The translations under genes were made by a program, and so were the position numbers. From Burkholderiales bacterium (lineage in GTDB: Bacteria; Pseudomonadota; Gammaproteobacteria; Burkholderiales; Burkholderiaceae_C): a DNA stretch of 54,373 nucleotides. The DNA is taken from positions 1 to 54,373 of the forward strand of contig CANCFV010000013.1 of assembly GCA_947377275.1 (NCBI GenBank), in the 5' to 3' direction. Positions 9,565-44,336 of this stretch are shown here, one piece after another; within the stretch, counting starts at the first letter, position 1, and each line of letters opens with the position of its first letter. The notes beneath the pieces were generated by a model. The model saw only the letters and a program-made list of their open reading frames with translations, had not been told where the DNA came from and did not search any database.

Positions 9565-9570
9565 CGCACC

Positions 9571-25385: not shown

Positions 25386-25391
25386 GGGTAA

Positions 25392-26165: not shown

Positions 26166-26171
26166 CACAAC

Positions 26172-28710: not shown

Positions 28711-29642
28711 TTGACCGCCCTCGCGAACATGACCACTTCTCGCCCCAAATTTTGGTTGGCAAACCCCGAATAGAGCTTGGTCAGCACATCACCGTTGCCT
28801 GACTGAACCATCGCCTTCTCGAAATTCATGCGCCTGGTATGACAAGCGCGTCCGACTGCATCATCGCCCACATAGTTGTCACCCATCAGCAAGAAAAGGT
28901 CGATGGGAAAGGTGGATTCCTGGTGTATCACCGAGAACCCACATCTCTCCAGCAGGCCCGCCAGCGTCGGGAAATCAAAGTAATTGATGTGATGCGGCGG
29001 AGCCACCCACCAGGGGGCGAATCCGAGGTGGTTCTCCAGGGTGGTCTGGAAACGATTGAAGTCGTTCGGCACGATCACGCAGAGCAAACCTCCGGCGTTC
29101 AACTTCGAATGCGCCAGCTTGAGCAGGTCGGCCGGGTCGGGAATGTGCTCGAGCACCTCGCCCATATTGATCACGTCGAAGGTGCCCAGCGTGGGTGCCG
29201 TTTCTTGCGTGAAGAAGATGTTCTCGATGTCGAGGCCCAGCTTCTGGCTGTGGGTGGCGGCTTCGATGGAGGGCTCAATGCCTTTGACCTGCCAACCGCG
29301 TTGCCGTCCATTGAGCAAGAAATAGCCAGGGCCTGACCCGATGTCCAAAATGCTGCGGGCGCCCTCGGGCAAGTTCTGCTCTAGCAACTCGTAGCGCCGG
29401 GTATAGACCGTGTTCCACCACTCCAGGTCTTGCTGATACCGCTCCAGGTACAAGGGCTTTTCCTGCGTGTAGTACTCGTGCCGATAGGCTTGTTCCAACT
29501 CGTCCTCGGTTGGAATGGGGACCACGTGCTTGAAGCCGCATTCGACGCAATCGATGACGTCGAATTCATTGGCGGACGAGATGACCGTGCCGCCATGGTT
29601 GTGCCACTGCTTGTGGCTGCACGTGCTGTTCACACCCGACAT
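28707..29642 (-). CDS. Class I SAM-dependent methyltransferase with N-terminal cysteine motif
   Basis: A 311-residue methyltransferase. The SAM site is LDIGSGPGYFL (about residues 96-106), with a following acidic residue in 'KGIEPS' and 'INMGEVLEHIPDP' as motif IV. The N-terminal 40 residues have Cys-rich 'TCSHK' and 'DCVECGF', like the zinc-binding part of sugar C-methyltransferases such as TylC3. Many O-antigen and antibiotic-sugar methyltransferases share this layout. It could place a methyl on the sugar made by this operon. It starts 3 bases after the class III aminotransferase stop and overlaps the ATP-grasp gene by 4 bases. Confidence 0.8.
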   Translation of the reverse strand: MSGVNSTCSHKQWHNHGGTVISSANEFDVIDCVECGFKHVVPIPTEDELEQAYRHEYYTQEKPLYLERYQQDLEWWNTVYTRRYELLEQNLPEGARSILDIGSGPGYFLLNGRQRGWQVKGIEPSIEAATHSQKLGLDIENIFFTQETAPTLGTFDVINMGEVLEHIPDPADLLKLAHSKLNAGGLLCVIVPNDFNRFQTTLENHLGFAPWWVAPPHHINYFDFPTLAGLLERCGFSVIHQESTFPIDLFLLMGDNYVGDDAVGRACHTRRMNFEKAMVQSGNGDVLTKLYSGFANQNLGREVVMFARAVK

Positions 29643-29645
29643 GTC

Positions 29646-30974
29646 TTATTCCTTGGTGAGTCGCTGAAAGCCAGAGTGGTGCTTCGGTGTATCGAGCGCT
29701 GTGCATTCAAGGTCGGATGCCAGTTCGGCGAACACCTTCGTCACCGCGGTTTCGTAACGGTCGAGCTCTGCGCTTTGGTGTGCGAACGATGGCTTGAACT
29801 GGCGGAAGCCGAGGAAGCCTTCCTGTAGCATTTCGATGGTGAAGCGCGTGTTCATGCCCATCGGGTGCCGCGCTTTGAAGGCGAAGGCCGCCAAGGAGGG
29901 TAAGCCGGTCACGCCAATGTCCAGCCCGCTGCTCGCCGCCGCGCGCCGCCAAATGTCTTTCACGCGGTTACCCGTTGCAATGATGTGCTGATCGACCGAC
30001 TCACGCTGGTATTTCTTCAGCGTGGCCAGTGCCGCTGCAGGGCCAACGCGGTCGGTCCAGTTGGTGCTGGAAATGAAAGTGGTTTGCGCCGCCTGCATGA
30101 CCTTCTCGGTGCCCAGAATCGCCGACATGGCATAGCCATTGGCCATGCTCTTGGCGAACACGGCGATGTCAGGGTACACACCGTAGTTGCGGTGGATGCC
30201 GCCAGCGCACATGCGGAAGCCGCTGGTGATTTCGTCGAACAACAGCACAGCACCGATCTCGCTGGCCAGCTCGCGCAGGGCCTTGAGGTAGCCGGCGGGC
30301 GCATCTTCACCGCGCGCCGGCTCAATGATGATGGCCGCGATTTTGTCTTCCTGCCCCTTCACCTTCTCACGCAAAGACTCGATGTTGTTGGCATCAAAGG
30401 GGATCGCCGTACCGGCCAGCCCTCGGGGCACGCCATTGGGCTCCAGCCCCGGCATCAGTTGTCCGTCCAGGCCCTTGCCATCAGACAGGTTGGCGGCGAG
30501 GTACCAATCGTTCCAGCCGTGGTAGCCACTGAACAACACCGTGTCGCGCTTCGTGTGCGCACGGGCGATGCGCACGGCGAGGCCCATGGCTTCGCCGCCA
30601 CTGCGGGCGTAGCGGACCATGCCAAACCAGGGATGCAGTTCGATCAGGGCCTCTGCCAGTTGCACCTCTTCAGGGCAATTGAGCGAGCTGTTGACACCTT
30701 TGCGTATGGCAGCGACCACGGCGTCATCCACCTCGTCATCGGCATAACCCAGGATGCAGGCGCCCACGGCCATGATGGACATGTCGATGAACTCGCGACC
30801 GTCCAGGTCCCACACGCGGCAGCCTTTGGCTTTCTCGTAGTAAGCCGGCCAGACGTCAGGCGCAAACATCTCGGGTCGCTTGGACAGCAGTTGCGTGCCG
30901 CCCGGGATCATCGTCTTGGCGTGGTTGTACAGGGCCACACCCTGGCTGGTCTTGAGATTTTCAAGGCTGTACAT
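29646..30974 (-). CDS. Class III aminotransferase (glutamate-1-semialdehyde aminomutase-like)
   Basis: A 442-residue PLP enzyme resembling glutamate-1-semialdehyde 2,1-aminomutase. The start 'YNHAKTMIPGGTQLLSKRP' is typical. 'RSGGEAMGLAVRIAR' near residue 124 binds the cofactor phosphate, 'LLFDEITSGFR' near 244 holds the PLP Asp, and the Schiff-base Lys is in 'FAKSMANGY' near residue 274. True HemL has a gabaculine-sensitive GSA pocket and sits in haem operons, so a second function in sugar amination is more likely here. The 5' end overlaps the cytidylyltransferase gene by 14 bases, indicating coupling. Confidence 0.82.
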   Translation of the reverse strand: MYSLENLKTSQGVALYNHAKTMIPGGTQLLSKRPEMFAPDVWPAYYEKAKGCRVWDLDGREFIDMSIMAVGACILGYADDEVDDAVVAAIRKGVNSSLNCPEEVQLAEALIELHPWFGMVRYARSGGEAMGLAVRIARAHTKRDTVLFSGYHGWNDWYLAANLSDGKGLDGQLMPGLEPNGVPRGLAGTAIPFDANNIESLREKVKGQEDKIAAIIIEPARGEDAPAGYLKALRELASEIGAVLLFDEITSGFRMCAGGIHRNYGVYPDIAVFAKSMANGYAMSAILGTEKVMQAAQTTFISSTNWTDRVGPAAALATLKKYQRESVDQHIIATGNRVKDIWRRAAASSGLDIGVTGLPSLAAFAFKARHPMGMNTRFTIEMLQEGFLGFRQFKPSFAHQSAELDRYETAVTKVFAELASDLECTALDTPKHHSGFQRLTKE

Positions 30975-31728
30975 GACTTTCCTTGTCTGATTGGAGTGAC
31001 TTGAGGTAGCCCTCGTTTCGAATGATGCTGCCGTTGATGCCCATCAAATCGGGAGATAACTCCAGTAGCTCCAGCACATCTTTCGCCAAGAAGGGGGGCG
31101 CGTCTTCGCGGTACAGCCGGTTGAACACCGCCTGCAGAAACTCATGGTCGCGTGGTTCGTCCAGCGTCCAACGGTGGTGTGAAAGCCCTGTGAACTTGAC
31201 CAGCCCACCGCATTTGAACAACCCAGGCTGCTTTTCGATGTAAGGCCCGACGTGCTCGCGCTCGGACGGCAGCTTGGCTTCTTTCCACGCGCGCTCGATG
31301 GCCGAAAACGCGAACACGGTGCAGTCCAGCCCGTCAGGGAACTCTCCGGCGAGGCCATAGAACTCGAAGCCGCCGGCCAGATAACCGCTGACCACTTCGT
31401 CGACGATGGTGGGATCAATGGCAGGGCAGTCGGCTGTGATGCGCACGATGGCGTCGGCCTGAGAAGCCTTGGCGGCCTGGTAGTAGCGATCGAGCACATC
31501 GAGCAGGCTGCCGCGGTGGCAGTCAACACCTCTGGCTCGGCACCAATCCTCGATGGCGTCATCGCTGCTGTCCACAGAGGTGGCCACCACGATCTTTTGA
31601 ATCGTCTTGCATTGCTCGATGCGCGCCACGACGTGCTCCAGCACGGGCTTGCCCGCCAGAGACATCAGCACCTTGCCTGGCAGGCGGGTGGAACTCATCC
31701 GAGCCTGGATGATGGCAACAACGTTCAT
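30961..31728 (-). CDS. SpsF-like cytidylyltransferase family protein
   Basis: A 255-residue nucleotidyltransferase of the SpsF / CMP-acylneuraminate cytidylyltransferase type. The CTP-binding start is 'AIIQARMSSTRLPGKVL', followed by 'VVATSVDSSDDAIEDWC' and 'IVRITADCPAIDP', whose Asp binds the metal. In Bacillus the spsF gene lies with spsC, spsE and spsG. Counterparts of all of these are present in this operon, which makes CMP activation of a nonulosonate-like product plausible. The ATG at 31728 overlaps the aldo/keto reductase stop by 4 bases; a GTG at 31740 is less likely. Confidence 0.78.
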   Translation of the reverse strand: MNVVAIIQARMSSTRLPGKVLMSLAGKPVLEHVVARIEQCKTIQKIVVATSVDSSDDAIEDWCRARGVDCHRGSLLDVLDRYYQAAKASQADAIVRITADCPAIDPTIVDEVVSGYLAGGFEFYGLAGEFPDGLDCTVFAFSAIERAWKEAKLPSEREHVGPYIEKQPGLFKCGGLVKFTGLSHHRWTLDEPRDHEFLQAVFNRLYREDAPPFLAKDVLELLELSPDLMGINGSIIRNEGYLKSLQSDKESHVQP

Positions 31729-32639
31729 GAACCACTCCACTTAGAAGGGTTGATCAATGCCTCATCCTCGACGGCAGTGGCTGGCCAGTCCATCAGGGGG
31801 GCAGCGCGAGAAGCAACGATCAATTGTTGAAAATGCGCCGGACTGTCCACGCCGACCACGATCTTGTCGATCTGAGGGTGGGCCTTGGCGAAGCCGATGC
31901 AGGCTTGTGCCGCCGAGCAGTTGTGATGCCGCAACCACTCATGCCATGTGTCCCAGACCGTGTCCCAACGGTTGAATTTTTGAGGGATGTTGGCGCGCGG
32001 CATCAGCATCAGGCCCTGGAGAAAGGCCGAACGCACATGGATCTCGACACCGCTGTCATGCAATTTGTCGAGCCAGCCGCTGGTGAGCAATCGCCGGTCA
32101 ATCAGGTTGAAAGGCGCCTGGACCACGTCAACCGGCCCCGCCTGCAGCACGCTGCCCAACTCCGACGGGGAATAGATCGATACGCCGACTTTCTCGACCA
32201 GGCCATCGGCCTTGAGTCGCATCAGGGCGCGAGCGAGGGCTGGCCCACGAGACTCGGTCAGTTGATGCGGCCTGTGCAAAAGCAGGCCACGAACAGACGT
32301 CACCTTGAGTCGCGCCAGGGACGCATCCATCTTGTCTCGCACCCAGGCTTCGACGTCCGGCACATCGTCAGGCATGCCAGAGAGCTTGGTGACGATGTTG
32401 AAGCCAGTTGAACCACAAGCGCCGATGCATGCCTCGCTGTCGCCATAGTCCATGGCCGTGTCCAACGTGTGGACGCCATGGGCCCGAGCCAGCGCCAAGA
32501 TGTCGCTCACCTCATGGCGTGACACCTGCCCGGACTGGTTGGCAACGCCATAGTTCATGCCGAACTGAGCCGTGCCCAGAGCGAGCCGATCGCCGACGCT
32601 GTCGTCGGGGGACATGGCCGAGGTGGTGCCCACACTCAT
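31725..32639 (-). CDS. Aldo/keto reductase
   Basis: A 304-residue NAD(P)H-dependent aldo/keto reductase. 'LALGTAQFGMNYGVANQSG' near the start, the catalytic Asp and Tyr in 'TLDTAMDYGDSE' (about residues 59-70), a Lys in 'IVTKLSG', and the His in 'LLLHRPH' form the usual D-Y-K-H set. This subgroup is often found next to SpsF-like and NeuB-like genes. It would reduce a keto-sugar intermediate in the cytoplasm. It overlaps pseC by 4 bases upstream and the cytidylyltransferase by 4 bases downstream. Confidence 0.82.
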   Translation of the reverse strand: MSVGTTSAMSPDDSVGDRLALGTAQFGMNYGVANQSGQVSRHEVSDILALARAHGVHTLDTAMDYGDSEACIGACGSTGFNIVTKLSGMPDDVPDVEAWVRDKMDASLARLKVTSVRGLLLHRPHQLTESRGPALARALMRLKADGLVEKVGVSIYSPSELGSVLQAGPVDVVQAPFNLIDRRLLTSGWLDKLHDSGVEIHVRSAFLQGLMLMPRANIPQKFNRWDTVWDTWHEWLRHHNCSAAQACIGFAKAHPQIDKIVVGVDSPAHFQQLIVASRAAPLMDWPATAVEDEALINPSKWSGS

Positions 32640-33796
32640 GCCAGAACCGCCGCGGCCACCGCCTGAATCACCCGATCCTGGTCAGCTTCAGATAGTTTGG
32701 GATACAGGGGCAGGCTGATGGCCTCGGCGTAGTAACGCTCGGCCTCAGGGAAGTCGCCGGCCTTGAACCCGAGTTGCTCGTAGTACGGGTGCCTGTGCAC
32801 AGGGATGTAGTGCAGGTTCACGCCGATGCCATCGCTTCGGAGTTGCTCAAACACCGCCCGGTGCGAGGCCTTGATCTGGTCCAGTTGCAAGCGAATCACA
32901 TACAGGTGCAAGCCAGAGTAGCCGTCTGGGTGTTGCCAGGGCCGCGTCAGCGGCAGCGCCTCGAAGGCTTGATCGTAGCGATTGGCAATTTGGTGCCGCT
33001 TGGCAACATAGGCATCCAGGCGCGTCATCTGGCTGACGCCAAGGGCGGCCTGCAACTCGGTCATCCGGTAGTTGAAGCCAAGGTCAATTTGCTGGTAGTA
33101 CCAAGGGCCATCGGGCTCATGTGTCATGTGCTCTGGAGCCCGGGTGATGCCGTGGCTGCGCAGCAAGTCCATCTTGTGCGCAAGCTTTGCATCGTTGGTC
33201 ACCGCCACGCCGCCTTCAGCCGTCGTCACAATTTTGACGGGATGGAAACTGAAGATGGTGATGTCACTGTACCGACCGCAACCGATCGGTTCGTTGCGAT
33301 ACCGGCCACCGATGGCATGAGACGCATCCTCGATGACCTTGAAACCATACCGTTGACTCAGGTCATGGATGCCCACCATGTCGCATGGCTGGCCGCACAG
33401 GTGCACCGCCACCACGACTTTGGGAAGCTTTCCTTGCTGCTCTGCGAGGCTGAGTTTCTCCGCCAAGCGGGGTACGCTCAGGTTGTAGGTGCGGGGATCG
33501 ATGTCAATGAAATCCACCTGCGCGCCGCAATACAAACCGCAGTTGGCGCTGGCCACAAAAGTCACCGGCGTGGTCCAAAGCCAATCCCCCGACCCCAAGC
33601 CCAGCGCCAGGCAGGCAATGTGCAGTGCGGAGGTCGCACTGTTCACCGCCACAGCGTGATTTGCGCCGCAGTAATGGGCGATCGCCTGCTCGAACGCCGG
33701 GACCACTGGCCCTTGTGTGAGGAAATTCGAGCGGAGCACATCGACCACGGCATCGACATCTGCCTGGGTGATCTCTTGGCGACCGTATGGAATCAT
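32636..33796 (-). CDS. pseC: UDP-4-keto-6-deoxy-L-AltNAc 4-aminotransferase PseC
   Basis: A 386-residue DegT/DnrJ-type aminotransferase matching PseC in length. 'IPYGRQEITQADVDAVVDVL' is the classic PseC start. The PLP lysine is K188 in 'FSFHPVKIVTTAEGG' and the cofactor Asp lies in 'VIEDASHAIGG' near residue 157. PseC places an amino group on C4 of the PseB product, giving UDP-4-amino-4,6-dideoxy-L-AltNAc. The gene follows pseB after 3 bases and overlaps the aldo/keto reductase. An LegC-type role is possible but the start residues favour PseC. Confidence 0.86.
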   Translation of the reverse strand: MIPYGRQEITQADVDAVVDVLRSNFLTQGPVVPAFEQAIAHYCGANHAVAVNSATSALHIACLALGLGSGDWLWTTPVTFVASANCGLYCGAQVDFIDIDPRTYNLSVPRLAEKLSLAEQQGKLPKVVVAVHLCGQPCDMVGIHDLSQRYGFKVIEDASHAIGGRYRNEPIGCGRYSDITIFSFHPVKIVTTAEGGVAVTNDAKLAHKMDLLRSHGITRAPEHMTHEPDGPWYYQQIDLGFNYRMTELQAALGVSQMTRLDAYVAKRHQIANRYDQAFEALPLTRPWQHPDGYSGLHLYVIRLQLDQIKASHRAVFEQLRSDGIGVNLHYIPVHRHPYYEQLGFKAGDFPEAERYYAEAISLPLYPKLSEADQDRVIQAVAAAVLA

Positions 33797-33799
33797 GGC

Positions 33800-34798
33800 T
33801 CAGATCTTTCCTATTGCGTCACGGTGTTGGGTAATCCATGCATGCAAGGTTTCCGAAGTCATCCACTCAGGGTTGGTGTCTGATGAGTATGTAAAGTCTT
33901 CAGGCACGGGCTGGCCACCGTTGATGCGGGACACATCCTTGCTCCAATTGTGGATGGCGGGCAGGATCTTGTAATACCCATCATATTCATAGGTATGTGG
34001 CGCATCTTCTGGGCCGATCATCTGTTCATGCAGTTTTTCGCCTGGGCGAATGCCGACGATTTCATGCGTGGCCTCAGGCGCAACAGCGCGGGCCACGTCG
34101 GTGATTTTCATCGAAGGGATTTTCTTGACGTAAATCTCGCCGCCAGCCATGTCATTGAAGGCTCGCCAGACAAGGTCAACACCTTCTTCCAGCGTGATCA
34201 TGAACCGGGTCATTCGCTCATCGGTGATTGGAAGCGAAGCATTGTCTGCCAGTGACATGAAAAATGGGATCACCGAACCGCGCGATCCCATCACATTCCC
34301 ATAGCGAACCACTGCAAAACGTGTGTCTTGTGTGCCGCTGTAGGAGTTGCCAGCAATGAACAGTTTGTCTGATGCCAGTTTGGTTGCGCCGTACAAGTTG
34401 ACCGGATTGCTGGCCTTGTCGGTCGACAATGCCACAACGCGTTTGACCCCCTGGTCGATGCACGCATCAATCAAGTTCATTGCGCCGTTGATATTGGTTT
34501 TCACGCACTCAAACGGGTTGTATTCAGCCGTCGGCACGATTTTGGTGGCGGCAGCATGCACCACATAATCAATGTCTTTCAGGGCCCGAGCCAGGCGATC
34601 TTTATCCCGAACATCGCCAATGAAAAAACGAACTCGCTCGTCGTTTTTATAATTCTTTGCCATCTCCCACTGCTTCATCTCGTCGCGAGAGAATATGACC
34701 AGGCGGCGCGGGTTGTACTTCGCCAGCGTCATGGGGACAAAAGTGTGCCCGAAGGAGCCAGTTCCTCCGGTGATCAGTATTGACGCGTTTTTTAGCAT
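33800..34798 (-). CDS. pseB: UDP-GlcNAc 4,6-dehydratase (inverting) PseB
   Basis: A 332-residue extended SDR. It has TGGTGSFG (about residues 10-17), IGDVRDKDRL, the active-site STDKA block and YGATK. 'GIRPGEKLHEQMI' is found in the C-terminal part of all PseB proteins. PseB is the first enzyme of pseudaminic-acid synthesis: it dehydrates UDP-GlcNAc with C5 inversion. The usual 'ALKQVP' block is 'ATKIVP' here. A GGGAAAG site precedes the ATG. It is the first gene of the 13-gene operon; a second, diverged copy lies at 2855-3859. Call is firm because pseC follows directly. Confidence 0.88.
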   Translation of the reverse strand: MLKNASILITGGTGSFGHTFVPMTLAKYNPRRLVIFSRDEMKQWEMAKNYKNDERVRFFIGDVRDKDRLARALKDIDYVVHAAATKIVPTAEYNPFECVKTNINGAMNLIDACIDQGVKRVVALSTDKASNPVNLYGATKLASDKLFIAGNSYSGTQDTRFAVVRYGNVMGSRGSVIPFFMSLADNASLPITDERMTRFMITLEEGVDLVWRAFNDMAGGEIYVKKIPSMKITDVARAVAPEATHEIVGIRPGEKLHEQMIGPEDAPHTYEYDGYYKILPAIHNWSKDVSRINGGQPVPEDFTYSSDTNPEWMTSETLHAWITQHRDAIGKI

Positions 34799-35484: not shown

Positions 35485-37155
35485 TCAAGGCAGCGCCCGA
35501 TACACCCTCACGCGGCCCAGATCACAAGCCAGTGCGAACCTCTGATCGCCAAACCATCCAGATTCACCCAGGCGACGACGAGTAGCCCTGTCAATCAAAT
35601 AGCCCTGCTCTGTTCGCTTGTTGGTCGCCTTTAACCGCGCGTCGAAACGCGCCTGATCAAGGGTGCCGACAGCGTCTCGCGCATCCAAGACCAGCAGGTC
35701 CACCGGCCTAGGGCAATATCGAAGCTTCGGATCCAGGTTGTCCCATGCCACCGACACGCAAGTGCCAGGCAAACTGAGCGCATTCACATTGGCCGGCGCC
35801 GTGTAATCAATGAAAACATGGTCAATGCGCCGACCAGACATGGTCTGCGCCATGCATTCACTCACCTGATTCGCCGTGCCCACATCCTTCGCAACACGGG
35901 CTTGCTTGGTGAAGTAACCGGCATGACTCCAGAGACAAACTTTTGCGGTGCGGTTGATGTCATAGCGGACCCATACGTCGGCGATCAACAGCAGGACGAC
36001 AAGCAGCAAGGCGAACCTGCCGGAGCGGTGTTGCACAAGTCCGACCACGCCAAGCACGGCCAGAAACGCGACACTGGTGAAGTAGGAACCGACGCTGATG
36101 TGGTTCTTCACGGCGCACCCGAGGTAGAGCGCCGCCACTGCAACGACCGCCATGATGGCGACAAAGTCCCATCGCCGAGCGCGATCACGCCATGCGACAT
36201 GAGCCCAACCGGCCGCCAAAATCGCCATGGCCAGGGCATTGCAGGGTGTGCCTAACGCTCCAAGGTAAAGACGCTCCACCGGGTTGGCCGGCCCCGATGG
36301 CGTCCGCGTCCCCTCAATGACGTTGCTCAAAATCTCCCAGTACTGCGCCCAGACCTGATGCTTAACAGGCAGGATCAAAAATTGTGGGTTGGTCAGCAGC
36401 GCCAAGCTGCCGACGAACACGACGCTGGGCTTGAAAAGGGTGGACAACCACGGTAAACCGGCTCGCTTCAATCTGATCAGAAGAAGGAGGCCAACCAACG
36501 GCAGAACCAGCAGGCCGCTAAGCTTGATGCCGCCTGCGACAGCCAGACTGAGCAAAGACTGACGCAGCGAAGTTTTGAACTCAACGTCGTCGCGCAGGGC
36601 AAGGTGAACGGACAACAAAGAGAAGAAGGCAACGGGACTGACGGTACCAAAGCGCATCGCGAAATACCCCATCGCGGGCGTCAACACAAAGATCAACAAG
36701 CCGAGCGCGCAGGCCCAATCGGGCACTGCCAACTGCTTTAGCAAACGACGCATCACCAACAGACTGAACACCGTGAACAGCCACGACACCATTCGAGGCA
36801 ACACGATCAATGGCCACTCGACCCCAGTCCACTGGGACAACAGGTAAAACGGGTAAGTCAGAGCCGCCATTGGCGCCCAGAACACCCACCCGTAGGCGTA
36901 GTCATTCAGAGCGAAGAACTTGTGGAGTTGGCCGCCGCGGAGTGCGTCATGAACCGCCCGCAGAGATGCCTGAAAAGCAACGTCATCGACCTCCCGAAAG
37001 CCCAAGATGCCGAAGTTCGCTGAAAAAATGAAGTTTTCCGCGAACAGGCCTGTCAAAATGCAGAGCACCAGCAGATGGCAAATGCACGTCTGCCAACGCT
37101 GGGCTGCGCCGGGCGAAACACGATGTTCGGTCATCACGGGCTGAACATCGATCAT
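35485..37155 (-). CDS. GT-C-like polytopic membrane protein (GT39/ArnT-like)
   Basis: A 556-residue inner-membrane protein with about ten hydrophobic segments. The N-terminal helix (ICHLLVLCILTGLF) is followed by a loop with 'GFREVDDVAFQASLRAVHDAL', whose acidic pair is where GT39 and ArnT-like lipid-linked transferases bind metal and substrate. Further helices run to about residue 420. A C-terminal 140-residue soluble domain follows ('IDHVFIDYTAPANVNALSLPG'). Such proteins use polyprenyl-phosphate sugars in the periplasm. The ATG at 37155 overlaps the aldolase stop by 4 bases. It is the last gene of the eight-gene operon and the probable final transferase. Confidence 0.7.
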   Translation of the reverse strand: MIDVQPVMTEHRVSPGAAQRWQTCICHLLVLCILTGLFAENFIFSANFGILGFREVDDVAFQASLRAVHDALRGGQLHKFFALNDYAYGWVFWAPMAALTYPFYLLSQWTGVEWPLIVLPRMVSWLFTVFSLLVMRRLLKQLAVPDWACALGLLIFVLTPAMGYFAMRFGTVSPVAFFSLLSVHLALRDDVEFKTSLRQSLLSLAVAGGIKLSGLLVLPLVGLLLLIRLKRAGLPWLSTLFKPSVVFVGSLALLTNPQFLILPVKHQVWAQYWEILSNVIEGTRTPSGPANPVERLYLGALGTPCNALAMAILAAGWAHVAWRDRARRWDFVAIMAVVAVAALYLGCAVKNHISVGSYFTSVAFLAVLGVVGLVQHRSGRFALLLVVLLLIADVWVRYDINRTAKVCLWSHAGYFTKQARVAKDVGTANQVSECMAQTMSGRRIDHVFIDYTAPANVNALSLPGTCVSVAWDNLDPKLRYCPRPVDLLVLDARDAVGTLDQARFDARLKATNKRTEQGYLIDRATRRRLGESGWFGDQRFALACDLGRVRVYRALP

Positions 37156-38183
37156 TTGGCCAACTGCATCCGGTAGTGCTCTGCATCCCAATTCAGCAAT
37201 GCGCGCACATCCTGGTCGTTGAGCGTTCGCAATGAAGCACTACGCGGCACCCGCACCAGCACATCGCGGAAGCATTGCAACTGGGCCAGCTTACCGGCCG
37301 CCATCGAATGCGCCCCATAAACACCCATGCCTCGGACGAACACCACGTCGGGCGCTTGGTCGGGATGGTTACGCGTCCATTCGCGCAACGCCGTCTCATT
37401 GTCGAAGACGCGAGCCATCGGGCCCAAGAACACAACGTGATCAGGGTAGAGGGCCCAGCTTGACTGCAACCTCCCCAGAAGCTGCTCATCGAGAGCCAGG
37501 TCATGCAAGCCAGCAAGCGGACACCACTTCAGCGCCAGATCAGGCGTTAGAGGTCGGATCGCGTCCCGGCTGGGACCCGGCCCGCCAACCTGGGATCGCC
37601 ACGCACCTCGCACGGTGTTGAGCAACAGCCTGACCTGATGCACGTCGCCTCCGCCGACCACCAAGCCGTGGTTACCCAGATACAACACATTGGCTTCCGG
37701 ACAAGCCGCGATGGCCTGAGCGGCCTCTTGCGCCAACTCGGCACCGGGCTTGCGATAAGGCAAGAATGCGGGCACCACGCTTGGAAGTGCCTTAGACATC
37801 AAGAGGTCACGTGCGTCCGTGCGAACCAGGTATGCAAGCACATCAATGGCGTGAAGGTGAACCACAATGCGCTGCGGCATCAGCACGTGCAGCAGTGTCT
37901 CGATCGATGGGCGGAGCTGCGATTCGCCCAGCACCGTCGGCTTTGCATCGAAATCCCCGGCTTTCAGTTCACGGCTCAACTTCGCGAGATCCACCGGCAC
38001 GAAAATTTCGGCCCGCTCCGCATCAGCAAGCCATGTCCCGGAAGCCTTGATCCACAGAGTGTCGCCCGCTTTCCAGGACACGTTGCCGCCCGCGCCCTGT
38101 ACCAGCATCGGATCCGAGCCCAGCTCGGCGCTCAGCCGACGAACACCCTTTGGCAAGACCATGTCATCTGGCTCAGCAGTCAT
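37152..38183 (-). CDS. Class II aldolase/adducin family protein
   Basis: A 343-residue protein with the class II aldolase fold, longer than the simple 210-residue FucA/AraD enzymes. 'GAGGNVSWKAGDTLWIKASG' near residues 31-50 binds the phosphate end of the substrate. 'RIVVHLHAIDVLA' near residue 106 has the zinc-binding H-x-H, and 'YLGNHGLVVGGG' near residue 168 gives the third His. The C-terminal 130 residues are extra. It would split or form a C-C bond in a sugar phosphate, or act as a dehydratase or epimerase as some relatives do. It overlaps the HAD gene by 4 bases. Its position in a glycan operon is unusual. Confidence 0.8.
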   Translation of the reverse strand: MTAEPDDMVLPKGVRRLSAELGSDPMLVQGAGGNVSWKAGDTLWIKASGTWLADAERAEIFVPVDLAKLSRELKAGDFDAKPTVLGESQLRPSIETLLHVLMPQRIVVHLHAIDVLAYLVRTDARDLLMSKALPSVVPAFLPYRKPGAELAQEAAQAIAACPEANVLYLGNHGLVVGGGDVHQVRLLLNTVRGAWRSQVGGPGPSRDAIRPLTPDLALKWCPLAGLHDLALDEQLLGRLQSSWALYPDHVVFLGPMARVFDNETALREWTRNHPDQAPDVVFVRGMGVYGAHSMAAGKLAQLQCFRDVLVRVPRSASLRTLNDQDVRALLNWDAEHYRMQLAK

Positions 38184-38932
38184 TTCCGCTCCGCCAGTTT
38201 TCCGAGAAGCTGCCGCAGCGCCCCGAAATCGACGAACGAAGCGTCAGGCGCACAAGGCCCCTCACCCAGGCTGACGCCCTCGTGCAGCTTCTGCAGCGTC
38301 ACCGCCTTGATTTTTTCACGACCGCCCTGGATATCGTTCACGGGGTTGTCGCCGATCATCCAGATGAGGTCGCCGGCTGGCCGCATCTTCTCCAGCGCGA
38401 TCAGGAAAGGCGCCTCATGGGGCTTGTCGAAGCCCGCCTCTTCGCTAGTGACGATGTAATCGAAGTGGTGATCAAGTCCGAAATAGACCACTTTTCGGAA
38501 CTGAATCTGCGCCGTCAAATCGGTGACGATGGCTGTGGGGATGCCCAAAAGCCGGATGTCATCCAGCAGGTCTTTGACTTGATTGAAGAGGATGGCATTG
38601 GACAAGAATGTCCGCCAGTAGGTTTGCTCGAAGTCAAGCGCAAGCAACACTTGCGAGCCCAAGCCCATGATCTCCAACATGCGCTGCATGTAGAGCAACC
38701 TGCTGTGCGACGACGCGGTGTGTTGAAGGCGTGCCTTGATCTGCTGACGAGCCCCTTTGAACGCCGCGTCGAACTCTTCGGGCTTGATCGAAAACGTCTT
38801 GACGACCTTGTCCCGAACCGCACTCTGCGCCGCTGTATGCGCCGGGTCATACGGATAAAGCGTGTTGTCCGTGTCAAACAGAATGGCATCGGGCAACCGG
38901 TCAAACCGATCTGCGTTGTAAAGCTTCACCAT
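38180..38932 (-). CDS. HAD-family phosphatase
   Basis: A 250-residue HAD hydrolase. Motif I is DTDNT in 'AILFDTDNTLYPYD' (about residues 17-30). The cap follows, then motif II in 'TAIVTDLTA', a lysine in 'GFDKPHEAPF' and motif IV in 'WMIGDNPVND' near residue 205. The overall layout is like pyrimidine 5'-nucleotidases of the SDT1 type. It would remove a phosphate from a sugar phosphate or nucleotide. It overlaps the membrane-kinase fusion gene by 7 bases and the aldolase gene by 4. Kinase, HAD and aldolase side by side suggest sequential steps on one metabolite. Confidence 0.82.
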   Translation of the reverse strand: MVKLYNADRFDRLPDAILFDTDNTLYPYDPAHTAAQSAVRDKVVKTFSIKPEEFDAAFKGARQQIKARLQHTASSHSRLLYMQRMLEIMGLGSQVLLALDFEQTYWRTFLSNAILFNQVKDLLDDIRLLGIPTAIVTDLTAQIQFRKVVYFGLDHHFDYIVTSEEAGFDKPHEAPFLIALEKMRPAGDLIWMIGDNPVNDIQGGREKIKAVTLQKLHEGVSLGEGPCAPDASFVDFGALRQLLGKLAERK

Positions 38933-40962
38933 ATGAATCGTTTCATCAGGGCCTGGTTAACGTGGGAGAGGGCCAGCAACTGCATCAAGCCCAGCATACC
39001 GGCCTCCCATTGGGGCTCAAGATCAAGGAACTCCATGATGCGAGGGCAAATCATGTGAGCGGCCAACGCGACGTCCTCTGCCGAGGACTCACCTTCGATG
39101 ACCAACTCGACTTCACCCGCATCGTTGCGCGCCTGCATGTCGACATGCAATCCGCAAACGCCGATCAAAACCCGAGCGAGGAGCAGCTCATTGAGGCCGT
39201 AGAGAGAGCGTGCCACGAGCTTGAACCGCAAGGGGTGTCGCCCGTCGGCTTCGGCGATCATGCGCGGATGGATGGGCTGCAACGCCAAGACCAGGTCCGC
39301 GTGTTCCGACTGGGGCCGAATGAAGCGAACAGAGTCGGGTTCCCTGCGATCGAAGGAAGACATCACGCGCTCCACAGTGTGTCCCCGCTGGTGCACATCG
39401 CGCTGGAGCTTGAAATACCGCCTCAAGGACTCGTCAATGTCCAAATATATGCTGAGGTTGTAGCACTCCCGCAAGATCGGCAAGTACAAGGCGTGCAAGC
39501 CGCTGGCAATGATGATGTCATTGCTGGCCAGCTTGAAGGGACGACCCATTTTGCCCGTCAAGTGGTCGTAGTGCCGCGACTGAATCCCACGGCCATCGGT
39601 CAGTGCAACCAGATCACGCGCAAAGCCCTCGAGGTCATTGGCCATCGGGTTGAGGTGCGTCATGACCTGCCACATTGGCTTCTGACGGTCCCAGAGGTGA
39701 TAGTCATCACCTGACAGCATGGTCACAGAATGCCCACCGAACAGGCCCTGAATAGATGCCGCGAAGGTGTCCTTTCCAGCACCCGAGTCTCCCGCCACGC
39801 CGATCACGAAAGGGCGCCGGCTCAGTCGAAAGAAGTCATTTTCACGGATCGTGTCCCGAGCGATGCGAATGGCGAGGATCAGTCCGGATGCGACCAGGGC
39901 AGTGTGGACCAGCGATTGAACGTGATTGATTGCATCCGGCGTCGTCCATGAAAGCGCCTCTTCCGGGATCAAGCCCAACACCACACTCAACACATAAAGC
40001 GAGGAGAAGCCGGCGATGAACCAGCGCGCCGTGGGGTCGCTTGCGTACTGGTACGACACAAGCAAGGGCACCACCCACACATACCAGCCAGGTGAAGCGG
40101 GGGTGAGCAGCACCACGAGCAAGAACTGCAGACCCAAAAGCGCATGAAACAGATCGAAGTTCAAACGCCTGATCCGCCATGCTGCATACACGGAGATCAT
40201 GTAGACCAATGGGACCACGTAGACAGAAAGATGCGGCCCCAACTCAAAAGCGAAGAGGTAGACCTTGCTGACCTCAGGGTTGCCGAACAACATCCTCGCG
40301 CCGCCATCAGACCAGACGAACGGGGCCGCCAAAAAGGCCACCGTGATCACCAGCCCCCGGAGGAACAAGGGCAACATCGAGCGCAGACGTCGGTTATGGA
40401 ACAGGTAGATGAGGAAAAAAGGCAACGCCAACACCATGCTGAGCTTCGCGGATATGGCGATGGCCAACGCGACACCTGACCAAGACCATTTGGCCTGACG
40501 CAACAGATCCAGCGAGAGCGCAAGCCAGAACACCGGCACAAGGTCATTCAGACCCAACACGTAGGTCGGAACAATGACCAGGGGAGACAACCAGTAAGCC
40601 CACGTCAGCAATCCATCTTTGCCTTTGAGCAAGCGGCGCAATAGGAAGAACAAGGCCAGATCCAACAGAAGCAAGGCCCCACCGTACGCCACATCGGCTC
40701 CCAACCCTGCCCCTCGGGCGGCCCAGGTCAAAGGCAGGAACATCAACCACATGGCTTGACCATATGGGAATGCGGCGATGTCACCCCCTGCGTTCAGCCA
40801 GTGCCCCCAAGGGTCAAGCGTCAGCGCCGTCGAGGTCTGCAGTAAAAAGGGCGCGTACCAGACCTTGACAGCAACAGGCTCCAACCAGGCCATCAAGCCA
40901 ATGCGCAAAGCAAGACCACACAGGAAGAGCGGATGCATCAGGACCCGAAGAAAGCGCTTCAC
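38926..40962 (-). CDS. Fusion of a GT-C-like membrane domain with a uridine-kinase-like domain
   Basis: A 678-residue two-part protein. Residues 1-370 contain about ten hydrophobic segments and look like a GT-C-type transferase, with an 'LNDLVPVFWLALSLD' block near 138-152. Residues 385-590 are a P-loop kinase: Walker A GVAGDSGAGKDT (about 388-399), an acidic pair in 'LSGDDYHLWD', and 'RHYDHLTGKMGRP' and 'IIASGLHALYLP' as in uridine kinase and phosphoribulokinase. A further 90 residues follow. The start is a GTG overlapping the GDPD-like stop by 4 bases. The junction is within one uninterrupted frame, so it is a true fusion. I know of no characterised protein with this arrangement. Confidence 0.75.
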   Translation of the reverse strand: MKRFLRVLMHPLFLCGLALRIGLMAWLEPVAVKVWYAPFLLQTSTALTLDPWGHWLNAGGDIAAFPYGQAMWLMFLPLTWAARGAGLGADVAYGGALLLLDLALFFLLRRLLKGKDGLLTWAYWLSPLVIVPTYVLGLNDLVPVFWLALSLDLLRQAKWSWSGVALAIAISAKLSMVLALPFFLIYLFHNRRLRSMLPLFLRGLVITVAFLAAPFVWSDGGARMLFGNPEVSKVYLFAFELGPHLSVYVVPLVYMISVYAAWRIRRLNFDLFHALLGLQFLLVVLLTPASPGWYVWVVPLLVSYQYASDPTARWFIAGFSSLYVLSVVLGLIPEEALSWTTPDAINHVQSLVHTALVASGLILAIRIARDTIRENDFFRLSRRPFVIGVAGDSGAGKDTFAASIQGLFGGHSVTMLSGDDYHLWDRQKPMWQVMTHLNPMANDLEGFARDLVALTDGRGIQSRHYDHLTGKMGRPFKLASNDIIIASGLHALYLPILRECYNLSIYLDIDESLRRYFKLQRDVHQRGHTVERVMSSFDRREPDSVRFIRPQSEHADLVLALQPIHPRMIAEADGRHPLRFKLVARSLYGLNELLLARVLIGVCGLHVDMQARNDAGEVELVIEGESSAEDVALAAHMICPRIMEFLDLEPQWEAGMLGLMQLLALSHVNQALMKRFIW

Positions 40963-41555
40963 GCTAAAGACTCCCAGATGTCCGCTCGCTTGGTGCAGAC
41001 GGCGTCGGCCACGATGCTCAAGGACGCTAGCTGAGCCGCGAGTTGAGGAATTTCGATCTGGGCATCCCGGCCTTGCAGTTCAGGTGACACCAGGCACAGC
41101 CGGAAGCCCGCAGCTTTGAGACGCAGTGCATCGCTTGTGCTCAAGGGAAAGCGTGAGAAACAATCAACCCAGACCCAGTCAACCTTGCCTGCGAGCGTCA
41201 GCGCCGTCTCCACTGACTCGAACTCGGAGACACGCACGGCACAGCGTCGTTCACCCAACTTGGACCATTTCACCAGGTAAGGAAAGGACTGATCCAGAAA
41301 GAAATAATCGGCAATGCCTCGCTCGGACATCAGCCTGATCAATCGCTCTTCCAGTCCTTCTTCCTTGACATTCAGGATCAAGGTGCCGTGCCTGAAATGA
41401 TCGAGCCAGCAGTCAAAATCTTCACCATCGGCAAACGGGTCATGCTGAACAATCAGCCTTTGGCCCTGGCTGCGCAGGTCGATTTCAATGCCGTGTGAAG
41501 TCGAGGTGACCCGCAGTTCGGCAATGGTGTTTCGGCGGTGGGCGATGAGGTTCAT
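40959..41555 (-). CDS. Compact glycerophosphodiester-phosphodiesterase-like protein
   Basis: A 198-residue protein with GDPD-type residues: an N-terminal HRRNT (His 6), the E-x-D pair in 'GIEIDLRS', a second His in 'VQHDPF', and Lys in 'LILNVKEEG'. Together they form the metal-binding and catalytic set of the family. It is shorter than usual GDPDs (about 240-350), and there is no secretion signal, so it should be cytoplasmic. The substrate may be a phosphodiester in the operon's product rather than glycerophosphocholine. The ATG at 41555 overlaps the GT2 stop by 4 bases; a longer upstream frame lies wholly inside the GT2 gene and is not real. Confidence 0.7.
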   Translation of the reverse strand: MNLIAHRRNTIAELRVTSTSHGIEIDLRSQGQRLIVQHDPFADGEDFDCWLDHFRHGTLILNVKEEGLEERLIRLMSERGIADYFFLDQSFPYLVKWSKLGERRCAVRVSEFESVETALTLAGKVDWVWVDCFSRFPLSTSDALRLKAAGFRLCLVSPELQGRDAQIEIPQLAAQLASLSIVADAVCTKRADIWESLA

Positions 41556-42256
41556 GCGATGCGCACCTTCTTCTTGAGTTCTAGGCTGAACTCGACCGTA
41601 CGCTTGATGAATTTTCGCTTCGCGGCCCAGTTGACATTCCAATGCGAAGTGCCATGCAGGCGTTCTCCGAACAAAACCGGAAAACGATGGACCGGCAATC
41701 CGAGGCTGCGGGCTGTGTAGTACGCGTAGAGGTCCAACGAGAAGTCGTGCGGAGCATCGTCGGACCAACTCTGGAAAAACTCACGCGAGAACATCGTTGG
41801 CTGGGCATTGATGTCCCAAAGCGGCTTTTGCAAGAGCGCGGTCTCGAAGCAACTCATTCCCACCGTGAACACAACATCGGCAAACGGACGGCCGTACCGC
41901 TTGCCCTTGACGAAAACATCCCGTCCGTTTCGCCGGAAGATGTCATGTCCCCTGATGGCATCCATCGGATCGGTCTGCATGTCAGCGTGTGTCCACCCAA
42001 GGATGTCACCCTGCGCAGCACGCAGGCCAGAGAGAATGCCAAAGCCATACCCCTGGTTCTTTGCAACATGCACGGATCGCACACCAGGGTGAGCTGGCAG
42101 CAGACAAGCCAGCACGGCAGCGCTGTCATCGGTCGAGCCATTGTTCACGAGCAGGACCTCGACGTCTCCAGAACGCGCCACTTCGCCACATCGGGCGACC
42201 AGGGCGGGCAGGTTGGCGGATTCGTTGTAGCAGGGGATAACCAGGGAGAGTTTCAT
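41552..42256 (-). CDS. GT2-family glycosyltransferase (DPM1/GtrB-like)
   Basis: A 234-residue GT2 enzyme beginning 'MKLSLVIPCYNESANLP'. 'EVLLVNNGSTDDS' near residues 35-47 binds UDP. 'LGWTHADMQTDP' near residues 83-95 replaces the usual 'D-A-D-L-Q-x-D-P' block and keeps the acidic metal ligand. The size and context beside GtrA suggest a transferase that loads a sugar on polyprenyl phosphate on the cytoplasmic side. It lacks the two C-terminal membrane helices of GtrB itself. It overlaps the GtrA-like gene by 4 bases and the GDPD-like gene by 4. Confidence 0.84.
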   Translation of the reverse strand: MKLSLVIPCYNESANLPALVARCGEVARSGDVEVLLVNNGSTDDSAAVLACLLPAHPGVRSVHVAKNQGYGFGILSGLRAAQGDILGWTHADMQTDPMDAIRGHDIFRRNGRDVFVKGKRYGRPFADVVFTVGMSCFETALLQKPLWDINAQPTMFSREFFQSWSDDAPHDFSLDLYAYYTARSLGLPVHRFPVLFGERLHGTSHWNVNWAAKRKFIKRTVEFSLELKKKVRIA

Positions 42257-42663
42257 GGCGAGGACAGTGTGGCTCCAGAGCGCTGGCAAAAAACCAGGTA
42301 CTTCATGCCAAGGAAATTGAGAAATGCCGAAGCGCCCGTGGCCAGCAGGAAGGCGCCCTGCCTGTCCCAAACCATGCCACCGAGTGCATGAAGGCTGAGC
42401 GCATTGACCAGCACGTTGACCGCCAGCGTCGAGCCATACAACAGCATGAAACGCCAGGCACTGCCCTTCACGGGCTCCTGATGGCTGAATGTCCAGTGGC
42501 GATTGGCGAAATAGGCAAAGGCGGTACCGACCAGGAATCCCAGGGCCTTGGCCACGTCCACAGGCACCCAGGCCGCAGCTTGTAGCACGCTGTAACTGAC
42601 GAAATCCACCAGCACCGTGACACATCCGACCACCAAGAAGGTGGCTGCTTCACGGCGGATCAT
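42253..42663 (-). CDS. GtrA-family membrane protein
   Basis: A 136-residue protein with four hydrophobic segments (for example 'FLVVGCVTVLVDFVSYSVLQ' and 'ALGFLVGTAFAYFANRHWTF') and the 'NRHWTF' signature of the GtrA family. GtrA-type proteins are proposed to flip polyprenyl-linked sugars for O-antigen or wall modification. The start is ATG 42663, overlapping the nucleotidyltransferase stop by 4 bases. With the GT2 and GT-C-like genes downstream this forms the classic three-part Gtr arrangement. Confidence 0.86.
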   Translation of the reverse strand: MIRREAATFLVVGCVTVLVDFVSYSVLQAAAWVPVDVAKALGFLVGTAFAYFANRHWTFSHQEPVKGSAWRFMLLYGSTLAVNVLVNALSLHALGGMVWDRQGAFLLATGASAFLNFLGMKYLVFCQRSGATLSSP

Positions 42664-44336
42664 GCAGTCATGCCCTGGGGCTCCGGGTGCACCCATTGGT
42701 ACCGTGCGCGCAGCGCCTGTACAGCCGCTTCCGGGACACGCTGGTCACGTTCAAGTGCATAAGGGTGAGATGCCCACTTGTCAAAGCACGACTGCCAATA
42801 CTCAAACGTCCGCAGGTCGTTGGGCGTCCCCCACGAGAAGAAGTGGTCCACCTCGAAAACATGGCAGCGCAGCCCGAGTGCCAGGGCGTGATTGACCGTC
42901 GAATCTAGGTAAAACTCGTCGTTGATGCGATCGTTCTGCTCAAGGAGGCGCTGGAGGGCCTGATCAAAATGGGACCGGCGCTTGAATGTGAACGTGCCGA
43001 TCACGATCGGGTCGTGGGCCGGTTGCGCCAACGGCTGCTTCACAGACACCCGGCGAATGCGCCCAGATTCCTCCGCTTCAACCCAACCAAACATCTGGGG
43101 GTGACGCACGGCGTTTGCGTGGCCGCGGACCACCCACACCACCACGTCAACATCGACGCGGGACATCAGTCGATCGAACGCGGCCCGGTCGTACAGTGCG
43201 CCGTTGTCACAGGCACCGAAAGTGATCGGCTCTGCTACATCACCGGCGCGAGCAACCAATGCGCTCAACCCGACGTTCGCTGAACAAGCCTGCCCCTCAG
43301 TCACATGGGGCACAGCCTGCAGAATCGCACCGGGAAACGCCTCTAACAAAGCACGACCGATGTCATCTCGCCCAGGCATATCGGTACGCAACACGAAGGC
43401 GTGTTGCTTGGCCTGCGGCAAGTCATGGGCCGCCTGCAAGACCATGGGGCGCCCGGACACGGGGATCAGTGGCTTCGTCTGGAGATAACCCTCGCGGGCA
43501 AAGCGATGACCCATGCCAGCCATGGGCACGATCATGGCACCGGCTGCAACCTCGGACTGAGCGGTTTCATCCTCCGCCAACACGCGGAAAGCATCCGACC
43601 AACCACCATACTCAGCCACATCTTCTGGGGTGCCCCATTGCATGAAGTGCTGCAGGGCATAAACACGGACATCCTGCCCAGCGTCCAACATGGGCTTGTA
43701 GGCCAGACTGACGTAGTACTCCCCGTTGACCTGCAGATTCCGGCGACGTGTCTCTGCTAAAGCCTGCTTCAGCACCTCACCAGAGCGGAAGTAATAGGTG
43801 CCGCTGGAGGCGTATTCATTCATCCGGTCATCCGTGTAGGGCTGCTTTTCCTGAATGTCCATAACACGCCCCCCAACTTCGCGCATGTAGGCGTAGTTGG
43901 TTGTGCCCAGCGTGTGTGGATGGAAGCCTTTGTAGGCTGGGATGGCGCCGTCGCAGGCGCTGGAGAGAACGAAAGCCTTGAAATGCGACCAATCCCACAG
44001 GCAGGTAAAATCGCAGTAGTTCAGGACGACAGGCCGTTGTGGATCAATGAGGTGCTCGACCTGCTGAACAGCATGCACCGGCCCCAATTTGTGAGCGGCG
44101 ATCCCCACCACTGTCCCAGTGGGGCACAACGCCTGCAACACGCCACGCATGCCGTAGTCAGCGCACTGCAGGTGATCTTCGTTGCAGATGAAAATGAAGT
44201 CATGCTCCCCAGGGAACATGTCAATCACATGCGCAATGATGGGTTTGCCATCGATTTCGATCAGCGGCTTTGGAACGGCGTAACCCGCACGACGAAACCG
44301 CTCGCCAAAACCGGACATGGGGATGACGATTTGCAC
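42660..44336 (-). CDS. Tandem sugar-nucleotidyltransferase (two NTP-transferase domains)
   Basis: A 558-residue protein with two nucleotidyltransferase domains in tandem. The first starts 'IVIPMSGFGERFRRAGY' (about residues 3-19) and includes 'KPLIEIDGKPII'. The second starts 'MIVPMAGMGHRFAREGY' near residue 267 with 'KPLIPVSGRPMV'. Both keep the G-x-G-x-R-F phosphate-binding pattern and acidic metal sites ('NYCDF' and 'GACDNG'). It would activate sugar phosphates with NTP. I use a GTG start at 44336, because AAGGA lies 9 bases upstream; a TTG at 44366 is also in frame. It is the first gene of the eight-gene operon. Two domains could have different substrates or one may be regulatory. Confidence 0.78.
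   Translation of the reverse strand: MQIVIPMSGFGERFRRAGYAVPKPLIEIDGKPIIAHVIDMFPGEHDFIFICNEDHLQCADYGMRGVLQALCPTGTVVGIAAHKLGPVHAVQQVEHLIDPQRPVVLNYCDFTCLWDWSHFKAFVLSSACDGAIPAYKGFHPHTLGTTNYAYMREVGGRVMDIQEKQPYTDDRMNEYASSGTYYFRSGEVLKQALAETRRRNLQVNGEYYVSLAYKPMLDAGQDVRVYALQHFMQWGTPEDVAEYGGWSDAFRVLAEDETAQSEVAAGAMIVPMAGMGHRFAREGYLQTKPLIPVSGRPMVLQAAHDLPQAKQHAFVLRTDMPGRDDIGRALLEAFPGAILQAVPHVTEGQACSANVGLSALVARAGDVAEPITFGACDNGALYDRAAFDRLMSRVDVDVVVWVVRGHANAVRHPQMFGWVEAEESGRIRRVSVKQPLAQPAHDPIVIGTFTFKRRSHFDQALQRLLEQNDRINDEFYLDSTVNHALALGLRCHVFEVDHFFSWGTPNDLRTFEYWQSCFDKWASHPYALERDQRVPEAAVQALRARYQWVHPEPQGMTA

Follow-up and report, generated by a model that had tools for sequence, protein, structure and literature searches.

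What do the eight overlapping genes at positions 35485 to 44336 of contig CANCFV010000013.1 (Burkholderiales bacterium, assembly GCA_947377275.1) make, and where would the product go? The whole stretch of 54,373 nucleotides that was analysed is called the window here. An original prediction had taken these minus-strand genes for one operon, and this was confirmed. It had also described a Gtr-type module together with donor-making enzymes; this outline stands and is conserved as a unit, except that the eighth gene encodes a swappable GT-C transferase outside the core. Judged by sequence, the other seven genes, for a tandem nucleotidyltransferase (NTase), a GtrA-type protein, a GT2 glycosyltransferase, a GDPD-fold phosphodiesterase (PDE), a GT-C::kinase fusion, a HAD phosphatase and a class II aldolase, are a conserved unit across phyla. 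We read the cassette as a glycan-decoration set of Gtr logic that would synthesise its own donor. That it is a decoration cassette with its own ketose-phosphate route is well supported at the sequence level, and we give the whole series of steps, through to the transfer of a pentulofuranose, an even chance of being right. The product would be a pentulofuranose, most likely L-xylulose, which is carried on undecaprenyl phosphate and transferred in the periplasm to O-antigen. The unusual moiety of the original prediction can thus be given a likely name, while its making and its attachment to lipopolysaccharide (LPS) are still what we infer from the genes.

The kinase, phosphatase and aldolase

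The fusion gene (38926..40962) encodes an N-terminal GT-C-like membrane domain of ALG3-like type (PF05208, 2.6e-6) and a C-terminal kinase domain (PF00485, 2.3e-36; 125.9 bits, cut-off 22). The kinase had been called uridine-kinase-like, and the scores do not bear this out. In the comparison with the PDB, phosphoribulokinases ranked first (best 6hzk, 142.7 bits), and among the chains named uridine kinase 9qkn reached 116.6 bits, ranked amid cyanobacterial phosphoribulokinase entries, and the rest 62.0 or less. The best NCBIfam model was the phosphoribulokinase model PRK07429, with 197.6 bits versus 87.6. The motif DDYHxxDR, which presumably contacts D-ribulose 5-phosphate (Ru5P), is kept, with D419 in 86/86, H422 in 86/87 and R426 in 85/87 ungapped rows, and the Walker A motif has GKD instead of GKS/T in 82 of 86 ungapped rows, where 6hzk has GKST; the retrieval patterns contained GDSGAGKD and GD-D/G-YH-x-W (through D425), and only the figures for R426 and for a Ser at position 487, given below, are free of that bias. 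The alignments used for residue conservation contain fragments; for some genes the window's sequence is present twice, and a few rows are identical (for the fusion, 93 rows of which 91 are distinct).

The HAD protein (38180..38932) found its best match among the NCBIfam models listed in the ribulose-1,5-bisphosphate (RuBP) 5-phosphatase NF053830, at 159.9 bits, and the next model scored 92.5. The aldolase/epimerase gene (37152..38183) encodes a RhaD-like class II aldolase domain (PF00596, 1.8e-16; 61 bits, cut-off 22.2) with a C-terminal extension. Its closest NCBIfam models are the aldolase part of bifunctional aldolase/dehydrogenases of the RhaD kind, and every ungapped row of a 77-row alignment keeps E95, H109, H111 and H172; we take the His residues to bind Zn and the Glu to be catalytic. 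Because the kinase is closest to phosphoribulokinase and the HAD to RuBP 5-phosphatase, the three enzymes can be read as a route from Ru5P to RuBP, to ribulose 1-phosphate (Ru1P) and to an epimer of it. The order of the genes matches this proposed order of reactions.

A comparable pair is described in a report on haloarchaea (PMC9700705). There, a RuBP 5-phosphatase gave notable phosphate release from RuBP alone among 12 sugar phosphates, its product was identified by nuclear magnetic resonance as cyclised Ru1P, and a class II aldolase acts after it, on Ru1P (PMC9700705). This non-carboxylating pentose bisphosphate pathway has the HAD-type phosphatase and the following aldolase in common with the cassette, but it is catabolic and obtains RuBP from nucleosides via R15P isomerase, not phosphoribulokinase (PMC9700705), whereas the cassette genes lie amid glycan genes and their RuBP would come from a phosphoribulokinase-like enzyme.

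A proposed route to a ketofuranose donor

From the enzyme families, their kept active-site residues, the conservation of the block and the GT-C fold of the eighth gene, we infer the substrates, the order of steps, the product and the acceptor as follows. The kinase would convert D-ribulose 5-phosphate to ribulose 1,5-bisphosphate, and the HAD would strip the 5-phosphate to give ribulose 1-phosphate, which would free O5 and make ring closure possible. Since a 2-ketopentose phosphorylated on O5 cannot close a furanose ring, a phosphate moved to C1 is what a ketofuranose needs. The aldolase would then invert C4 by a retro-aldol/aldol sequence to yield L-xylulose 1-phosphate, L-xylulose being the C4 epimer of D-ribulose. 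A ketofuranosyl donor needs activation at C2, so that moving the activated phosphate from O1 to O2, the anomeric position, is left to the two NTase domains and the PDE. In this fourth step the GDPD-like enzyme would work between the two NTase domains, and the intermediates would run from nucleoside diphosphate (NDP)-1-xylulose through the 1,2-cyclic phosphate and the 2-phosphate to NDP-2-xylulose. Next, the GT2 would load the sugar onto undecaprenyl phosphate and GtrA would assist its flipping. Finally, the sugar would be transferred to O-antigen or another surface glycan by the swappable GT-C, either alone or together with the fused GT-C domain.

The GtrA/DPMS-type membrane protein (42253..42663; PF04138, 5.4e-19, scored on the longer frame 42253-42696) and the GT2, a likely polyprenyl-phosphate sugar synthase (41552..42256; PF00535, 1.7e-19), are encoded by adjoining genes that overlap by 4 bases. 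The tandem NTase (42660..44336, 558 aa) matches Pfam NTP_transf_3 and NTP_transferase in two stretches each. Its halves are 26% identical across 259 columns. In a 76-row alignment both keep their motif residues in every ungapped row, D507 excepted (66 D, 6 E). The PDE (40959..41555) has a TIM barrel of GDPD type and forms a distinct subfamily, for which Pfam gave no match at E 0.1. It keeps H6, E24, D26 and H38, which may correspond to the catalytic His and to metal-binding acids of GDPD enzymes, and carries Asn62 in 69/69 rows where those enzymes have a third acid. PI-PLC and related enzymes of the same fold produce cyclic phosphates. The fourth step, with the roles of the PDE and the second NTase domain and the phosphate migration, is the least certain of the pathway and comes from reasoning on the enzymes that are left.

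Two other uses of these proteins were weighed. It is improbable, in our judgement, that the kinase, HAD and aldolase break Ru5P to dihydroxyacetone phosphate (DHAP) and glycolaldehyde and that the NTases and the GDPD-like enzyme build a phosphodiester substituent of the glycerol or glycol phosphate type, not a sugar. In its favour, GDPD enzymes normally act on glycerophosphodiesters. Against it, GT2 proteins with GtrA, and GT-C enzymes, handle polyprenyl-phosphate sugars, and a dehydrogenase or reductase for glycerol phosphate was not found among the eight genes with Pfam and NCBIfam. The passage of the haloarchaeal pathway through DHAP and glycolaldehyde (PMC9700705) speaks for such a substituent. 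The two NTase domains with kept motif residues, together with two GT-C-like domains, would also fit two different donors, one per NTase domain, for the fused GT-C and for the eighth gene, with no phosphate migration. We hold this for a long shot too, as there is just one GT2/GtrA pair and one precursor route, and the conserved GDPD-like gene (45/47 loci) would go unexplained.

The pathway leading to L-xylulose resembles in its logic the GDP/ADP-heptose routes of the HddA/GmhB/HddC type, in which a kinase is followed by a HAD removing the terminal phosphate and then by a nucleotidyltransferase. Those routes use an aldose and an anomeric kinase, whereas in the cassette the kinase is of the ketose-phosphate type and is joined by an aldolase, a GDPD-like enzyme and two NTase domains. 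A bolder version is put forward only tentatively, as we think it rather unlikely to hold in full. In it, the cassette would be the first route to activated ketofuranose donors, in which kinase and HAD bring the phosphate from C5 to C1, the aldolase inverts C4 and the GDPD-like enzyme, with one nucleotidyl transfer before it and one after, moves the phosphate by way of a nucleotide ester and a 1,2-cyclic phosphate to the anomeric C2, giving NDP-2-L-xylulose and undecaprenyl-phosphate-L-xylulose, and the PDE/NTase core would serve other ketoses with other HADs in a second module.

The candidate for that second module is a divergent PDE of the same subfamily, which is found alongside NTase and HAD genes in L112, an O-antigen locus of Yersinia, in genome G558 (L113) and in two IMG/VR contigs (L093 and L094). 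These four stretches are like the cassette in their PDE subfamily, NTase and HAD, and differ from it in that the profiles of the cassette kinase, aldolase and GtrA found no match in them; the HAD of L112 is of the beta-phosphoglucomutase type. Because the divergent PDE and NTase recur with another HAD, and the kinase, aldolase and GtrA profiles were unmatched there, the PDE/NTase pair may be of general use wherever one kind of activated sugar is made. The O-antigen locus in L112, from Yersinia genome G216, also has gmd and an rmd-like gene, and the stretch at 8040-11100 within it is made up of cupin-like, NTase, HAD, PDE and NTase genes.

Conservation and spread of the cassette

A scan of species genomes for relatives of the fusion protein found 90, of which the best 80 loci were kept; 47 of these, the long-flank set, have at least 8.5 kb on either side of the fusion gene. 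Two loci (L012 and L028) are identical 22-kb stretches, and both are counted in the 80 and in the 47. The fusion was matched over nearly its full length in most of the 80 loci. In the long-flank set the HAD was present in 47/47, the NTase, GT2 and PDE each in 45/47, the aldolase in 44/47 and GtrA in 35/47 loci; GtrA proteins are short and variable, and one may have been missed in some of the 12 loci without a match. The eighth gene of the window's type was found in one of the 47. The commonest order, NTase-GtrA-GT2-PDE-fusion-HAD-aldolase, was seen in 34/80 loci. The original prediction had named conservation of the neighbours as a point on which it could fall, and the core genes do stay together, in 35 to 47 of the 47 loci.

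According to their record titles, the carriers include Pseudomonadota, Acidobacteria, Nitrospira, Planctomycetia, Geobacter, Desulfobulbus and others, many as metagenome-assembled genomes (MAGs). An IncR plasmid of E. coli has the eight-gene set in identical order with an eighth gene from a different family, an Azospirillum plasmid has all seven core families in another order, and a Hirschia plasmid has all seven dispersed across about 11 kb. Two IMG/VR contigs also carry the cassette. It is rare: among 398 genomes from the phylum, 6 had strong PDE matches, counting that of the window, and one more a weak match, and aldolase matches occurred in 2 of 200 genomes of the order, namely the window's own and a remnant in genome G183. 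That remnant (L090:2886-13249) consists of a partial NTase (2886-3533), a GT2 behind an unrelated frame, a PDE, an aldolase and a membrane gene; GtrA, fusion and HAD were unmatched there with the cassette profiles. It had been considered as a kinase-less variant of the cassette, and was read as a remnant after the scan with these profiles. A phage origin was likewise not retained: when 50,697 phage records were searched by tblastn with the fusion protein, 5 were matched, and in none of these did a single place cover 80% of the query.

These counts bear on which ketose would be made. The same decoration logic might serve D-xylulose or D-ribulose, or else a ketohexose that the aldolase would form from DHAP and an aldehyde. 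We regard these alternatives as unlikely. D-xylulose would need no aldolase, yet the aldolase accompanies the block in 44/47 loci, and a ketohexose formed by aldol addition would not require the kinase and the HAD. Copies without an aldolase in the stretch taken had been considered as a D-xylulose variant. This was dropped, except for Desulfobulbus, since a search of the genome assemblies located an aldolase elsewhere in four of the five carriers. Methyltransferase genes stand directly before the GT2 in some copies (L010:8079-8687, L040:7850-8674 and L052:7982-8701), which suggests a methylated product there, and the product may vary. Published work also describes class II aldolases as accepting several aldehydes (PMC9700705), xylulose as a rare sugar of several bacterial surface glycans and D-xylulose as a component of a Devosia glycan. 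For D-xylulose, the signal of the unprotonated anomeric carbon is reported near 107 ppm (PMC8707391). Of the sugars considered, L-xylulose is the most likely.

Two E. coli plasmids, from human stool in one case and frog-farm sediment in the other, carry near-identical cassettes with IS26 close by (L003:6022-14984 and L088:3774-12736), which indicates recent spread. In a Pseudomonas locus (L055:3160-16620) the cassette is flanked on one side by a CI-like repressor with a membrane gene and on the other by mutS, and an IMG/VR contig (L087:3160-21807) has the same upstream genes and phage tail and baseplate genes after the cassette. The mutS site is a known location of tailocins, and the cassette at this site may be linked to changes of tailocin receptors.

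The exchangeable eighth gene

The eighth gene (35485..37155) is a GT-C glycosyltransferase by the fold of its predicted model (mean pLDDT 70.2), and is probably acceptor-specific. Pmt4, ALG12, ArnT and oligosaccharyltransferases matched it within about 2 Z units of each other, and, given this closeness and the model's pLDDT, only the GT-C fold and no subfamily was assigned. A large membrane protein lies within 2.5 kb of cassette genes in 38/47 loci. The 80 large membrane proteins in or near cassettes, among which the window's is included and some are probably unrelated neighbours (L028 was left out of the grouping), fell by sequence into many groups, of which the three largest have 11, 8 and 6 members; the protein of the window belongs to the group of 6. 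All six eighth-gene proteins examined, the window's included, had no Pfam match at E 0.01. From these groupings, the eighth gene is exchanged between unrelated families and stands outside the conserved core.

Gtr systems combine donor-making genes that stay the same with a transferase that can be exchanged, and the cassette shows this pattern. The GtrABC serotype-conversion systems have in common with the cassette a GtrA-type protein, a GT2 expected to load undecaprenyl phosphate, and a polytopic transferase that can be swapped, and the likeness extends to the cassette's occurrence on plasmids and two IMG/VR contigs as well as on chromosomes. To our knowledge, known Gtr systems use common UDP-sugars; the cassette differs in having five further genes for an unusual donor, including the one in which a GT-C and a kinase are fused. 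The fold of the eighth gene also resembles the arabinofuranosyltransferases AftA, AftB, AftD and Emb, with Pmt4, ALG12 and ArnT ranking higher, and could be taken to point to an aldopentofuranose donor comparable to decaprenylphosphoryl-ribose or -arabinose. We consider such a donor very improbable: a phosphoribosyl pyrophosphate (PRPP) transferase, a DprE-type epimerase and a ketose-aldose isomerase were not found among the eight genes with Pfam and NCBIfam, and the kinase and HAD are closest to ketose-phosphate enzymes.

A possible link to Yersinia O:10

For a known glycan with L-xylulose, one report describes the Y. enterocolitica O:10 polysaccharide as a D-rhamnan with L-xylulofuranose (L-Xulf) side chains, and its 11-gene locus accounts for D-rhamnose and export, with no gene named there for L-Xulf synthesis (PMC11380512). 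A cassette-type PDE was found in one of 25 Yersinia genomes, G204 (Y. proxima, locus L007), and the divergent PDE in a second. The published start primer of the O:10 wzm gene matched 8/25 genomes at up to 3 mismatches and was exact only in G204. All six published primers of the wzm region matched the G204 locus at 0 to 3 mismatches, whereas in the other loci compared (L112 and seven wzm stretches of 1.7-3.0 kb) the best was one primer at 1 mismatch, with 8 to 10 for the outer primers. The order in G204, manC (cut by the stretch end)-manB-wzm-wzt-(531 aa)-(771 aa)-gmd-rmd-GT-GT, equals that of the O:10 table, with the 531- and 771-aa genes in the places of the methyltransferase and gtr1. The D-rhamnose gene rmd is present in 12/25 Yersinia genomes. 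Among 18 carriers from three eighth-gene groups (not all members), rmd was found in 5/7 with the Y. proxima eighth-gene type versus 2 or 3/11 of the two other types, a post hoc comparison with p 0.04 or 0.09, as a match at 35% identity in genome G619 was scored once as a match and once not. The divergent PDE module of L112 was also considered as the source of O:10 xylulose and was not adopted, since the published O:10 locus is without such genes.

Several findings count against the proposed pathway and its link to O:10. The kinase is below the curated cut-off of PRK07429 (197.6 vs 236 bits), the HAD below that of NF053830 (159.9 vs 330 bits), and the aldolase far below those of all the bifunctional models. 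At position 487 of the kinase, Ser replaces the phosphoribulokinase Glu that precedes GLH in 86/87 ungapped rows (EGLH in 6hzk); together with the GKD of Walker A, we read this as an acidic residue shifted from the second motif to the first. We know of no precedent in glycan donor synthesis for phosphate migration by a GDPD-like enzyme. In the Desulfobulbus carrier, a MAG, the genome search found no aldolase match. The Yersinia link is circumstantial, a single coincidence of one genome in 25 with one in 25, and the O:10 structure comes from another strain. The O:10 authors tentatively hold one of three glycosyltransferases encoded in the O-antigen locus responsible for adding L-Xulf (PMC11380512), where our reading has a periplasmic GT-C. 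The window's own genome has only a weak rmd match (30%), so that its acceptor is probably not D-rhamnan. E. coli O95 contains xylulose, according to a further report (PMC8707391), and was considered as a direct test; a DNA search of 5,426 E. coli genomes, in which O95 strains were possibly not represented, gave the cassette on two plasmids only, and the test was abandoned. An O-antigen locus was not found in a 49-kb chromosome stretch of E. coli S1-CAM-02-A, the position of which was guessed.

If the pathway is right, it would explain the source of L-xylulose in O:10-type antigens of Yersinia, a sugar of hitherto unknown synthesis, would offer a marker by which to recognise ketofuranose decoration in environmental bacteria of many kinds, and would reveal a phosphoribulokinase relative that serves surface sugars instead of carbon fixation. 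The original prediction had known of no described system with these members, and in the open-access literature, which leaves most subscription papers outside, we found no account of the gene set and no named genes for making or activating xylulose. The gene set is real, conserved and, as far as searched, undescribed, and even with another sugar it would be a directly testable seven-gene block conserved across phyla.

Surroundings of the cassette in the window

Upstream and divergent from the operon lie genes for a DUF4254 protein, a heptosyltransferase I of the WaaC type (above its cut-off) and an MsbA-like protein (591.5 bits, cut-off 602). Downstream are PseB and PseC genes, both exceeding their cut-offs, and NeuB-type, aminotransferase-like, SDR, ATP-grasp-like and methyltransferase genes, which look like a set for nonulosonic acid synthesis. 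The heptosyltransferase and MsbA-like genes on one side and the nonulosonic-acid-type genes on the other place the cassette in LPS/glycan surroundings. The minus-strand run at 24525-34798, with PseB, PseC, NeuB-type, glutamate-1-semialdehyde-aminomutase-like, ATP-grasp-like, methyltransferase and KduI-like genes, appears to be an unusual nonulosonic acid set.

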